From positions 1 to 64,000 of the forward strand of contig CALINO010000048.1 of assembly GCA_938045295.1 (NCBI GenBank): a stretch of 64,000 nucleotides of DNA, in the 5' to 3' direction. A program made the position numbers and the translations under genes. The first letter of the stretch is position 1; the number at the start of each line of letters is the position of its first letter. Below, piece by piece: positions 37,965 through 41,579 of the stretch. The notes under the pieces are model-generated. The model was not told the DNA's origin, ran no database searches, and saw only the letters and a program-made list of their open reading frames with translations. This stretch comes from an uncultured Arenicella sp. Its GTDB lineage: Bacteria; Pseudomonadota; Gammaproteobacteria; Arenicellales; Arenicellaceae.

Positions 37965-37996
37965 TTGTAAACCAAAATGGATTTTACACTTTACAA
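37965..37996. promoter_or_regulatory. Putative BirA operator for the biotin operon
   Basis: TTGTAAACC (37965-37973), 14 bases, then ACTTTACAA (37988-37996). The known proteobacterial BirA box is TTGTAAACC-N14-16-GGTTTACAA; the left half is perfect and the right half matches 7 of 9. It lies between the divergent bioB and comF genes and overlaps the comF start codon. On the minus strand a TTGGTT-N18-TATAAA promoter (37975 to 37946) would have its -35 inside the left half, which suits repression of bioBFHCD. Confidence 0.62.
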
Positions 37997-38798
37997 CAAG
38001 CATCTTAAAGACTTAATGCGCTGGTTTTTTCCTGAGACTTGCCCGTTGTGCGCGCAACAACTTGGCAATAAAGACGCCCAAAACACGCCTTATTGCTCAC
38101 AATGCACTGCCAGCTTGCCGTATCTAAAGCACGCCTGCCTTCGGTGCGGCCAACCTTTTAGCCACACTGCAGCTTACTCTGACAATACCGCGACAGGCTA
38201 CGCCTTAAACCAACTCAACTCTGATATCGACATTGATATTGGGCATGAACACACTGCCAGCTCAAGCGTTGACCATTGCGGCAAATGCATAAGCCACCCG
38301 CCGTCATTCGATCACTGCTTTAGCCCTTTTGAGTACAGCGCCCCTATTAGCGATGAAATATGCCGCCTGAAATACGCCGAACAACCACAGCTGGCAACTC
38401 GTTTAGCCGAACTATTTGTTGATGAACTGCTGGCGCATGACATTGAGCAGCCTGAAGCATTGCTTGCCGTACCCATGCACTCAAAACGATTGCGAGAACG
38501 CGGCTACAATCAATCTTTGGAGCTTGCAAAACAAATTGCAAAACGCCTTGAAATACCGCTAATTAACGACTTAGTGCGCAAAAAAACTCATACTAGAAAA
38601 CAAACCACAAAAACACTCATTCAGCGCCAGTCAAACCTAAAGAACAGTTTTGCAATACTAAAAAACAAACACTATCAACATCTTGCCATTGTTGACGATG
38701 TTATTACTACCGGCACTACTGTTGGCGAAATTAGTAAAATTCTGAAGAAAAACGGTGTAGACTACATACAAGTGTGGAGCATCGCGCGCACCCGCTGA
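37977..38798 (+). CDS. ComF-family phosphoribosyltransferase-like protein
   Basis: A 273-residue ComF-type protein. It has four CxxC pairs (C22/25, C40/43, C54/57, C101/104) that probably hold zinc, and a C-terminal PRTase fold with LLAVPMHSKRLRERGYNQS and the PRPP motif IVDDVITTGTT (238-248). ComF proteins act in DNA uptake in naturally competent bacteria; the molecular role is not settled. An alternative start is the ATG at 38016 (MRWFFPETC). Located divergent from bioB and before the pilus locus, it may be linked to type IV pilus-based uptake, but that is inference. Confidence 0.9.
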   Translation: MDFTLYNKHLKDLMRWFFPETCPLCAQQLGNKDAQNTPYCSQCTASLPYLKHACLRCGQPFSHTAAYSDNTATGYALNQLNSDIDIDIGHEHTASSSVDHCGKCISHPPSFDHCFSPFEYSAPISDEICRLKYAEQPQLATRLAELFVDELLAHDIEQPEALLAVPMHSKRLRERGYNQSLELAKQIAKRLEIPLINDLVRKKTHTRKQTTKTLIQRQSNLKNSFAILKNKHYQHLAIVDDVITTGTTVGEISKILKKNGVDYIQVWSIARTR

Positions 38799-38907: not shown

Positions 38908-39759
38908 ATGACTACCAAACCATCCGATTTAATTGCCATTGCCAACCCCGAATTAGCCGAAAAACTGGCAAAAAAAGACGAGCCTGAGAAAAAGCCGACA
39001 CAAGAAACCGACGAAACATCGGCACAACCGGCTTACCGCTCATTCAAGCAAGAAATCTGGAAGGCAGTATTCACCCTCAATATTTTCAGGTACGCATTCG
39101 CCTTAATTATTTTATTGCTGTCACTGGGGCACGAACTGATACCCGGCTTCACCCCATTTAAAAACTTTCTGCACCCCACCTTATTTTTATATTGCGCGGC
39201 GTTTCTTTTACTCTCAGCCTCACTGTTTACGCTTTTCACCAAGCTAAGGCTGCTTCCATTGGAAGTCATTCTGATTGCTCAATTCACCATCGACATCATT
39301 CTAACCGGCTTAATTGTGCACGCCACCGGCAGTATTAGCAGCAGCTTTGCCTTGTTGTTCTTAATTATTGTCACCACTGGCAGCGTGGTGCTCGAACGCC
39401 GCTTCGCATTAGGCTTGGCCGCTGGCGCCATCATTATTATTTTCTTTGAGCACTTTTACAGCGTTTTAAAGCTAGAGGAACCCACTGGCTGGCGTTTTGA
39501 TTCGCTTGCCATGTACGGCGTTTTGTTAATGTTCGCCGGTATCGGCATTTCATCATTAGCCAAAATGATTAAACACGCCGAATTAAAATCGTATGTGCTC
39601 GGTAACGAGTCTATTGAAGAATATTTAGTGCGTGAAGAAATTGCCGCCTTAAAATCAGCACTAGTTGCCACCGCAGGAAATAAAACCGAAGCCGCAAAAC
39701 TGCTTGGCATGACCTTCCGATCATTTCGCTACAAGCTAAGCAAGCATGAAATTGCCTGA
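38908..39759 (+). CDS. PilS sensor domain fused to PilR DNA-binding domain (one-component membrane regulator)
   Basis: A 283-residue protein immediately upstream of pilA. The N-terminal ~45 residues are a charged cytoplasmic stretch. Residues ~53-220 form six membrane helices that match the PilS input domain (IFRYAFALIILLL..., VHATGSISSSFALLFLIIVTT, FAGIGISSLAK). After a short linker, residues ~236-280 are a Fis-type helix-turn-helix (AGNKTEAAKLLGMTFRSFRYKL) of the PilR kind. The PAS, histidine-kinase, receiver and AAA+ domains that should lie between are all absent. The frame is intact, starting after an AAGGAAAC site. It probably senses pilin in the membrane and binds DNA directly near pilA. 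That activity is inferred. Confidence 0.9.
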   Translation: MTTKPSDLIAIANPELAEKLAKKDEPEKKPTQETDETSAQPAYRSFKQEIWKAVFTLNIFRYAFALIILLLSLGHELIPGFTPFKNFLHPTLFLYCAAFLLLSASLFTLFTKLRLLPLEVILIAQFTIDIILTGLIVHATGSISSSFALLFLIIVTTGSVVLERRFALGLAAGAIIIIFFEHFYSVLKLEEPTGWRFDSLAMYGVLLMFAGIGISSLAKMIKHAELKSYVLGNESIEEYLVREEIAALKSALVATAGNKTEAAKLLGMTFRSFRYKLSKHEIA

Positions 39760-39771
39760 CAATTATTGTCA
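39757..39771. promoter_or_regulatory. 15-base palindrome at the stop codon of the sensor-HTH gene
   Basis: TGACAATTATTGTCA is a perfect palindrome around a central T and begins with the TGA stop of the upstream gene. GCC and GGC extend it outward on both sides. It could be an operator for the pilA promoter region; no T-run follows on the plus strand. Confidence 0.35.
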
Positions 39772-39826
39772 AAGGCAAAAAAAACAGCGCAACCAATTTT
39801 TGTCACCCCTATTTAGTAAAACAAAA

Positions 39827-40071
39827 TCAACAACTTAAGTCGTTATCAAAGTTTTACAATTTAACGCTGATGAAAAACACACTTTTGGGGTAAATTACAT
39901 TCAACAACTTAAACAGGGCAGCGAAAGTTATTTCTCACTTGTTAAGAGTAGTTTTTGTAAGAACTTGTTTTTACAAACTTAAAACGAAAAGTCATCAGCC
40001 AACTTCAGTATCTTAGTTGGGGAAGGTGTTGAAGACGGCTCACAATAAATTTTAACTTTTACAAACTTAAA
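39827..40071 (+). promoter_or_regulatory. pilA upstream region with four ACAA(A)CTTAA motifs
   Basis: The 327-base gap before pilA (39760-40086) holds TCAACAACTTAA at 39827 and 39901 (exact 12-mers, 74 bases apart), and TTTTACAAACTTAAA at 39969 and 40057 (exact 15-mers, 88 bases apart). The four copies share ACAA(A)CTTAA and lie on the same strand. No convincing sigma54 (-24/-12) or strong sigma70 element was found. AGGAAAT is the ribosome-binding site before pilA. Confidence 0.6.
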
Positions 40072-40086
40072 CATAGGAAATCAAAC

Positions 40087-40689
40087 ATGAAAACTATGCA
40101 AAAAATTCAAAAGGGTTTTACCCTAATCGAATTGATGATCGTTGTTGCGATCATCGGTATTCTAGCGGCCATCGCTATTCCAGCGTACACTGACTACACT
40201 ATTCGTTCTAAAGTAAGTGAAGGCTTGTCACTTGCAGCGGCAGCTAAAGTTGATGTCGGCGAAGGCTATCAATCTGCTAACGTATTAGGTGTTACTGTTG
40301 CGGCGGCGGCTTACAACCAAGGTTTCACTCAAACTAAATTCGTTGCAGGTATCGCAATTGATGACCTTGCTGGCGGCGGTGCTGGTGGCGGCTTCGGTGT
40401 TGCAAATTTAGCAGGCGCCAACCTAGGTGAAATTGCAGTTACATTTTCAAATGCACCTGAATTACCAGCCATCGTTCAAAACACCACTTTGTACATAACC
40501 CCTTGGATTGCTGATAACAATCTTGGTGTGGTTAACCTACAAGCTGGCCCTGTTGGTAACATTGATTGGAGCTGCCAGTCATTGACCAGCCTTACTGCAG
40601 CAGCTCGTGCAGTAAACCCTACACCAACAACAAATGTTGGCACAGTAGGAACACTTCCTGAGCAATTTGCTCCTTCTGAGTGCAAATAA
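40087..40689 (+). CDS. pilA: Type IV major pilin
   Basis: A 200-residue type IVa prepilin. The leader [10 protein letters not shown] is cleaved before [20 protein letters not shown], with E5 of the mature form in place, and the helix continues to about residue 60. The C-terminal domain is large and Ala/Gly-rich, with a probable disulfide loop between the two Cys (WSCQS and PSECK) as in type IVa pilins. The sequence is longer than the usual 140-165 residues because of a GGGAGGGF insertion (~115-125) and extended loops. It is next to tfpX/tfpZ-like and pilBCD genes. Confidence 0.95.
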
Positions 40690-40850: not shown

Positions 40851-41579
40851 ATGTTTATAAACAGGCAGCTTATTAAAGACAAAACCAAGGCCTTTACCAC
40901 CCACTTTTTAATCAGCTTGGCTATTATTTTAGCGTTCATTGGCTTAGCTGTTTACTACTGGTATGCGCCCAACATGCTAATTCTAGGCGCAACTCACGGA
41001 CTTATCATTTTAGTACTGGTTGATTTAGTGCTCGGCCCGTTTCTCACTTTTGTGGTGTTCAAGAAAGGCAAAAGAAGCTTACCGTTCGATTTGACGGTTA
41101 TCTTCACTATACAAATCGCTTGCTTTGTCTATGGCGCAAAATTGATCATTGATGAACGTCCACTGTTGCAGGTTATCGCTGATAATGGCCTAACCCTTTT
41201 TACCAAAAGCGAACTGAGTGAACTTGAAGGTAAAAACCACGGCATTACCGAGCCTAATACATTGTTTTATTTAACCCTTGAAGGCGACCTAACTCAAACT
41301 GTTGCTAAAAGAGCAATAATAGAGCTAACCACTGGCAAACCTTTTGCCTACCAACCGAATAATTTTCTTAAAGCAAGCAATATATCGCAACAACAGTTCA
41401 CCGACAGAATGGCGTTTATTCAACAATTCATACCTGAGTACCAAAAAAAGCTCTATGAGAAACTGTCAAAGGAGAACAGCAAAGAGTGCGAAATCGTCCC
41501 AATCACGTCGAAACACAAGAGCAATGCCTATGCCTGCATCAGTTATGATCAAGGAGTTATTTTTGTAGACGAGCACTAA
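40851..41579 (+). CDS. TfpX/TfpZ-like type IV pilin accessory protein
   Basis: A 242-residue protein with a conserved N-terminal membrane part (about four helices, ~17-105: LISLAIILAFIGLAVYYW, LVLVDLVLGPFLTFVVF, IACFVYGAKLII) and a soluble C-terminal domain (~110-242). This arrangement and the place immediately after pilA match TfpX/TfpZ, which act as dedicated assembly factors for their own pilin in some bacteria. The C-terminal part is poorly conserved in the family. A terminator lies between it and pilA. Confidence 0.82.
   Translation: MFINRQLIKDKTKAFTTHFLISLAIILAFIGLAVYYWYAPNMLILGATHGLIILVLVDLVLGPFLTFVVFKKGKRSLPFDLTVIFTIQIACFVYGAKLIIDERPLLQVIADNGLTLFTKSELSELEGKNHGITEPNTLFYLTLEGDLTQTVAKRAIIELTTGKPFAYQPNNFLKASNISQQQFTDRMAFIQQFIPEYQKKLYEKLSKENSKECEIVPITSKHKSNAYACISYDQGVIFVDEH

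Follow-up and report, generated by a model that had tools for sequence, protein, structure and literature searches.

The pilA locus of an uncultured Arenicella sp. encodes a 283 aa protein in which the membrane domain of PilS is followed directly by the DNA-binding domain of PilR; judged on sequence, the best explanation is that PilS-PilR was reduced to a one-component form which is functional and has been passed down vertically. The protein is predicted to be a membrane-tethered, pilin-responsive regulator of pilA that would work without phosphotransfer, an ATPase or sigma54 on a sigma70-type promoter, more likely as an activator than otherwise; a probability of roughly 0.55 is assigned to this reading. 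In Arenicella, a two-protein phosphate-relay switch for pilin has been reduced to one short protein, and the pilus promoter has apparently been rewired to match; the collapse of a two-component, sigma54-dependent circuit to a one-component form can be placed on a tree, with the changes in protein, operator and promoter readable at one locus. The locus lies in a 64,000-nucleotide stretch of contig CALINO010000048.1, referred to here as the window. No description of an Arenicella PilS-PilR fusion was found in the literature searched, nor any paper pairing Arenicella with PilR.

The fusion gene and its protein

The fusion gene (38908..39759, forward strand) is an intact ATG frame of 283 aa. Its 5' neighbour is comF (37977..38798, forward strand), which serves as a marker of the conserved locus, and 3' of it lies pilA (40087..40689, forward strand), encoding the major type IV pilin that is presumed to be both target and signal of the fusion protein; the placement directly upstream of pilA in the preliminary description is right, and the 327-nt gap between the two genes holds candidate regulatory elements. 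That description had also read the frame as six PilS-type helices joined to a PilR-type helix-turn-helix (HTH), which Pfam and an AlphaFold2 model confirm. The Pfam family 6TM_PilS (PF25323) matches residues 48-208 (E 7.2e-17, 62 bits against a cut-off of 27) and HTH_8 (PF02954) matches residues 246-279 (E 1.5e-9, above the curated cut-off); no Pfam match to a PAS, histidine kinase, receiver or AAA+ domain was found in the 283 aa at E values up to 1. The model (mean pLDDT 71.2, pTM 0.57, with low confidence for residues 1-44) features six helices within residues 41-228 and a three-helix HTH within residues 236-279. A fold search gave no match at E 0.001; the membrane part matched nothing useful, and Fis chains were returned at E values of at least 0.2 with a probability near 1 over the HTH. 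In architecture the protein is a PilS-PilR chimera of the Rsp type, with the PilS membrane part preceding the PilR DNA-binding part in a single frame, and likewise a transmembrane regulator with a membrane region and a predicted DNA-binding domain in one protein.

The six-helix membrane domain of PilS type comprises residues 46-226 (39043..39585, forward strand), as delimited by Pfam, the model and loop charge; the charges of its short loops are consistent with both termini on the cytoplasmic side. It is followed by a PilR-type linker and Fis-type HTH, residues 227-283 (39586..39756, forward strand), assigned by HTH_8 and by identity to PilR, the C-terminal part sharing 45-63% identity with the PilR C-termini of 12 relatives. 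Matches of the fusion profile to PilS of relatives stop at residues 225-229 (n=12) and those to PilR begin at 220-234 (n=12), which puts the junction near residue 226. The loss of parental domains stated in the preliminary description stands, although its figure of at least about 550 residues is too low; with L152 as reference, the absent parts are PilS 193-547 and PilR 1-387, about 740 residues. The N-terminal cytoplasmic segment, residues 1-45 (38908..39042, forward strand), carries the motif DLIAIANPxLAxKL, of which the core M1, L8, A12, N13, L16, A17 and L20 is invariant in 15 of 15 fusions; a second copy was not found in the window's genome, and by eye the motif is not at the start of those PilS proteins of relatives that were inspected. 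It is possibly a docking motif.

Occurrence in Arenicella and origin from pilS-pilR

The window's genome and 60 relatives were searched for the fusion. It is intact and full-length in 15 of 18 Arenicella genomes, the window's own counted, including all 11 that are at least 90% complete; the 43 relatives outside the genus gave partial matches or none, and no full-length fusion. Every genus genome with a detected comF carries the fusion, and comF was likewise not detected in the three without it (completeness 80-85%), whose assemblies therefore probably lack the locus. Among 369 genomes drawn from the class, full-length matches at E 1e-12 were confined to the four Arenicella drawn, and among 398 drawn from the phylum the sole full-length match at E 1e-15 was the window's own; these draws overlap, possibly lack Neisseria gonorrhoeae, and had at most six candidates scored per genome, so that rare fusions could escape. 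A short frame of 158 aa with an HTH match was also seen, in G375. Twelve named records hold the full fusion, eight named Arenicella and four named to class or phylum, and they are not independent of the genus set. The preliminary description had proposed looking for the same domain pair elsewhere and had allowed for a misassembly or a strain-specific remnant; the pair is restricted to Arenicella among the genomes drawn, and its intact presence across the genus speaks against both of these.

The position of the fusion matches that of pilS-pilR. Relatives within the family or order have pilS and pilR after comF (or its end) at 13 of 13 loci; 12 of these reach beyond pilR, and a pilin gene comes next in 11, one of which (L147) is from the same family as Arenicella. 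In the twelfth, L158, no pilin lies within the 528 nt that remain 3' of pilR, where a convergent frame is found; L159 is cut inside pilR, and both were excluded from the promoter comparison, which keeps 11 relatives. All 15 Arenicella loci have the fusion after comF. In 13 of them a pilin gene comes third; L003 ends too soon, and L010 (genome G011) has a different gene downstream. Because comF-pilS-pilR stands at the same place in 13 relatives, the fusion most likely arose there by deletion of about 740 codons, and deletion in place is strongly supported by these sequences as the simplest account. The origin between adjacent pilS and pilR that had been proposed is borne out by the synteny, by the seamless junction and by the lack of a second 6TM_PilS protein in 15 genomes. 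An origin from a RegB/RegA-type system was also considered, as the RegB/ActS/PrrB-RegA family combines a multi-helix sensor with an HTH_8-type output; this was rejected, the NCBIfam RegB match being weak (E 1e-3, 17.5 bits, far short of the cut-off of 570) and the locus and HTH pointing to PilSR.

In the tree the fusion rows fall on one side of a single branch (support 82/91). Support is good for 10 of the 24 inner branches; the branch of L147, the nearest relative, is very long, and the tree program issued a warning about long branches meeting, so the tree shows only that a single origin is not contradicted. Mean column identity among the 15 fusions is 57%, many HTH columns being invariant, and the other 14 share 37-69% identity with the window's. 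The median pN of the HTH is 0.17 and the median pS is about 0.77-0.78, with synonymous sites near saturation; this difference indicates purifying selection on the fusion.

Search for a separate PilS or PilR

Each of the 15 fusion-bearing genus genomes contains one 6TM_PilS protein, the fusion itself. The hunt for PilR covered the window's genome, alone among the 18 of the genus; there, no second match to the fusion, HTH included, was found at E 0.001, and the same query recovered the PilRs of relatives at 1.8e-12 to 4.2e-8. NCBIfam cannot name a PilR, since it gave two true PilRs no PilR model. The genome has seven Sigma54_activat matches, three of them strong, and none of these was accepted as PilR: one is NtrC (TIGR01818, above cut-off), one is an NtrX-like protein by its best family, which is below cut-off, and one is a Sigma54-activator-like frame (L161 898-2352) that adjoins an antiporter-like frame and for which all listed NCBIfam scores are below cut-off. 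By eye, the C-terminal HTH sequences of the three are unlike that of PilR. The remaining four matches score below 34 bits, and the two that were read look by eye like a MoxR-type and a ComM-type frame. The earlier statement that no separate pilS or pilR accompanies the fusion, made for the window, extends to a second 6TM_PilS in the 15 genomes and to PilR in the window's genome; a dominant-negative role against PilR, raised in the same place, is unlikely because no PilR was detected in that genome.

The palindrome at the stop codon

O1, an operator-like perfect palindrome (TGACAATTATTGTCA, 39757..39771), overlaps the fusion stop codon. The pattern TGACAAWWWTTGTCA begins at the fusion stop codon in 11 of 15 genus regions; across the 18 whole genus genomes it has 12 sites, 11 on the fusion stop codon and one elsewhere (G001), and 10 of the 11 genomes that have it contain it just once. 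The reversed TGACAAWWWTTGTCA pattern, used as a control, occurs once in the 18 genomes. Twelve of 15 genus regions and 9 of 11 regions from relatives have a palindrome matching 14 or more of 15 positions, where dinucleotide shuffles expect at most 0.02; in the 12 genus regions it lies on the stop codon or no more than 3 nt away. All 12 of these genus copies (at least 14 matches) share the same outer twelve letters, which are also found in relatives, there at no fixed distance from the stop codon. As a similar palindrome lies 3' of pilR in 9 of 11 PilSR relatives, it is probably an inherited PilR operator. A possible second half-site, TTGTCA, is located at 39800..39805, and six of the 15 genus regions have a TGTCA or TGACA at 42-47 nt. 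The palindrome was not found in L010, which keeps the fusion next to its different gene, or in L013 and L014 (G014 and G016), where the fusion stands beside an unusual pilin with a long leader; among the 11 relatives, L148 has a sigma54 site without such a palindrome.

The pilA promoter region

Candidate sites for IHF, sigma54 and sigma70 were assigned from general consensus sequences. Upstream of the pilin gene a sigma54 site is present in 11 of 11 PilSR relatives, at scores of 19-22 of 22 on author-set weights that at most 0.005 of 200 shuffles reach; no such site was found in the 15 Arenicella regions (scores 12.5-17, shuffle fractions 0.045 to 0.87), a count that retains L003 and L010, neither of which reaches a pilA. 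The notion that the fusion operates without sigma54 receives indirect support from this difference. The change lies at the promoter, as rpoN is still present in 16 of 18 genus genomes. G014, which is 99% complete and has the fusion, gave no Sigma54_DBD/rpoN match, yet has strong Sigma54_activat matches; this reflects either an assembly gap or a true loss.

Between O1 and pilA the window has an IHF-like site (AATCAACAACTTA, 39825..39837, forward strand). Full matches to the consensus occur in 8 of 14 genus regions (L010 excluded; 0.7 expected) against 1 of 11 in relatives (0.23 expected). Matches at 8 of 9 positions are found in five further genus regions and also in 5 of 11 relatives, so that only the full matches and the fixed place are counted as evidence; the genus matches lie 54-71 nt past the start of the stop codon. 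The place of a sigma70-like -10 element is 39887..39897 (forward strand), where the window's copy is degenerate (GGGGTAAATTA) and was not picked out by a general promoter scan. TATAAAT is present in 9 of 14 genus regions, again without L010 (0.81 expected), and in 0 of 11 relatives, and in eight of the nine it is in the promoter place. The extended form TGnTATAA is present in 8 of 15 genus regions at 130-138 nt; in the interval 100-170 nt it occurs in 0 of 11 relatives, two of which have one at 98. No conserved -35 was seen in the aligned genus regions. The distance from the IHF-like site to the -10-like element, taken in 12 genomes (L010, L013 and L014 had no anchor), is 63-64 in three, 73-74 in eight and 82 in one; these spacings are about one helical turn apart, which is suggestive only, as the genomes share ancestry and the anchor search was confined to 95-165 nt, with a looser pattern for L001 and L008.

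Two further features were observed around pilA. An exact direct repeat (TTTTACAAACTTAAA, 39969-39983 and 40057-40071) upstream of pilA is absent from the other 14 genus regions, and the gene after pilA (40851-41579) resembles the TfpX/TfpZ pilin accessory proteins (NF041437, 120 bits, cut-off 200).

Proposed mechanism and alternatives

Binding to O1 would be the protein's likeliest act, given the kept palindrome and the little-changed PilR-type HTH; in the proposed model the HTH dimerises and, still tethered to the inner membrane, binds the palindrome where the fusion gene ends. IHF would bend the DNA between O1 and the pilA promoter, which is predicted to be of sigma70 type; across the roughly 130 bp between them the fusion would then act, most probably to activate transcription. 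Membrane-resident pilin may contact the six-helix domain, as it does in PilS, and this contact would alter the pairing or placement of the HTH, giving negative feedback on the pilin stock. PilS of P. aeruginosa is described as interacting with PilA through its six membrane segments in pilin autoregulation (PMC6058289), and the pilE gene of commensal Neisseria is described with the order UAS, IHF site, RpoN promoter (PMC6528607), which the Arenicella order of palindrome, IHF-like site and promoter resembles. It is this order, together with the PilS-PilA contact, that suggests tethered, pilin-responsive control of a sigma70 promoter. The wider evolutionary step, in which a sigma54 enhancer-binding system would have become a membrane regulator of a sigma70 promoter free of phosphate and ATPase, with the enhancer kept, the AAA+ domain and the -24/-12 elements dropped and pilin setting the HTH directly, is put forward tentatively, at somewhat less than even odds.

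The same protein could instead be a membrane-tethered repressor or roadblock on the inherited operator, lowering pilA expression or read-through into pilA and released when pilin is scarce. The overlap of the palindrome with the fusion stop codon would suit such a role, as would the extended -10 in 8 of 15 genus regions, since promoters of this type need less activation; however, the -10-like element is some 130 bp downstream of the palindrome, a distance too great for a simple block, and the order of operator, IHF-like site and promoter resembles the layout of an activator. Repression, for which Rsp is a precedent in that one account has it repress (PMC10269533), is considered less likely than activation through a bent loop. 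An architectural tether, which would anchor the pilA locus to the inner membrane and bring the synthesis of nascent pilin to its site of insertion, with little or no regulation, would agree with a single palindrome site on the fusion stop codon in 10 of 11 pattern-bearing genomes and with the weak resemblance of the HTH to Fis (E 0.2); the conservation of a six-helix domain, rather than one anchor helix, argues for sensing and makes a plain tether improbable.

Two other alternatives would remove the operator or the function altogether. Were the palindrome to act in the RNA, as a hairpin or as a terminator for the fusion gene, the extension of the window copy to -10.5 kcal/mol (z -1.97), the folding of those of the relatives L147 and L156 at -12.7 and -14.3 kcal/mol, and the runs of at least five T within the next eight bases after 3 of 12 genus copies would be accounted for; but nine of the 12 genus copies and all nine copies in relatives lack five T in that interval, a terminator-like site was not found in the window stretch, the stem is extended by at most one contiguous pair in every genus copy, and the identity of the outer twelve letters in 12 genus copies and their recurrence in relatives at varying stop distance speak against this as well, leaving the hairpin very improbable. 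Least probable is a decaying, functionless remnant of pilSR, for which the loss of the sigma54 promoter and the way gonococcal Rsp was viewed (PMC6528607, PMC10269533) could be cited: 15 of 15 frames are intact even though the other 14 share 37-69% identity with the window's, the HTH has a pN of 0.17 at a pS near saturation, and 12 of 15 regions retain the palindrome at the stop codon or at most 3 nt from it.

Comparison with known systems

The fusion differs from ToxR and CadC, in which the HTH is winged and N-terminal and there is a single helix, by its six PilS-type helices and C-terminal Fis-type HTH. BcrR is also a transmembrane one-component regulator. ToxR, TcpP and CadC are described as regulators of this kind (PMC10269533); like the fusion, these and BcrR are membrane proteins with a cytoplasmic DNA-binding domain. 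With the PilS-PilR system the fusion shares the locus (13 relatives), the membrane domain, the HTH and the palindrome, which is matched at no fewer than 14 of its 15 positions in 9 of 11 relatives; it differs from PilS-PilR by the absence of the PAS, kinase, receiver and AAA+ domains and by a pilA without a sigma54 site.

The closest counterpart is Rsp of Neisseria gonorrhoeae, described as the PilS membrane part joined to the PilR DNA-binding part (PMC6528607, PMC10269533); both are two-part PilS-PilR chimeras in one protein. According to PMC6528607, pathogenic Neisseria transcribe pilE with RpoD and commensal species with RpoN. Rsp stands in a lineage with an RpoD-dependent pilin gene and RpoN-using relatives, as is predicted for the Arenicella fusion. 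The same source reports no apparent role of Rsp in pilE transcription, whereas PMC10269533 has it as a repressor. Rsp follows parC, and the title of Carrick et al. 2000, as cited in PMC6528607, calls it a remnant; the Arenicella fusion follows comF, genus-wide where comF was found, with an operator-like site beside pilA in most genomes. The different loci, and the intact PilSR of Arenicella's relatives, argue for independent origins of the two.

With Rsp the existence of this kind of chimera was shown, although Rsp was regarded as a remnant; the Arenicella fusion is apparently an independent, second case of the Rsp architecture, kept across a genus, mostly beside pilA and with an operator-like site. 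A selected, genus-wide copy with its operator makes it testable whether pilin sensing by a membrane domain can drive DNA binding without phosphotransfer and, if the proposed reading is true, would show a promoter switching sigma factor while keeping its enhancer.
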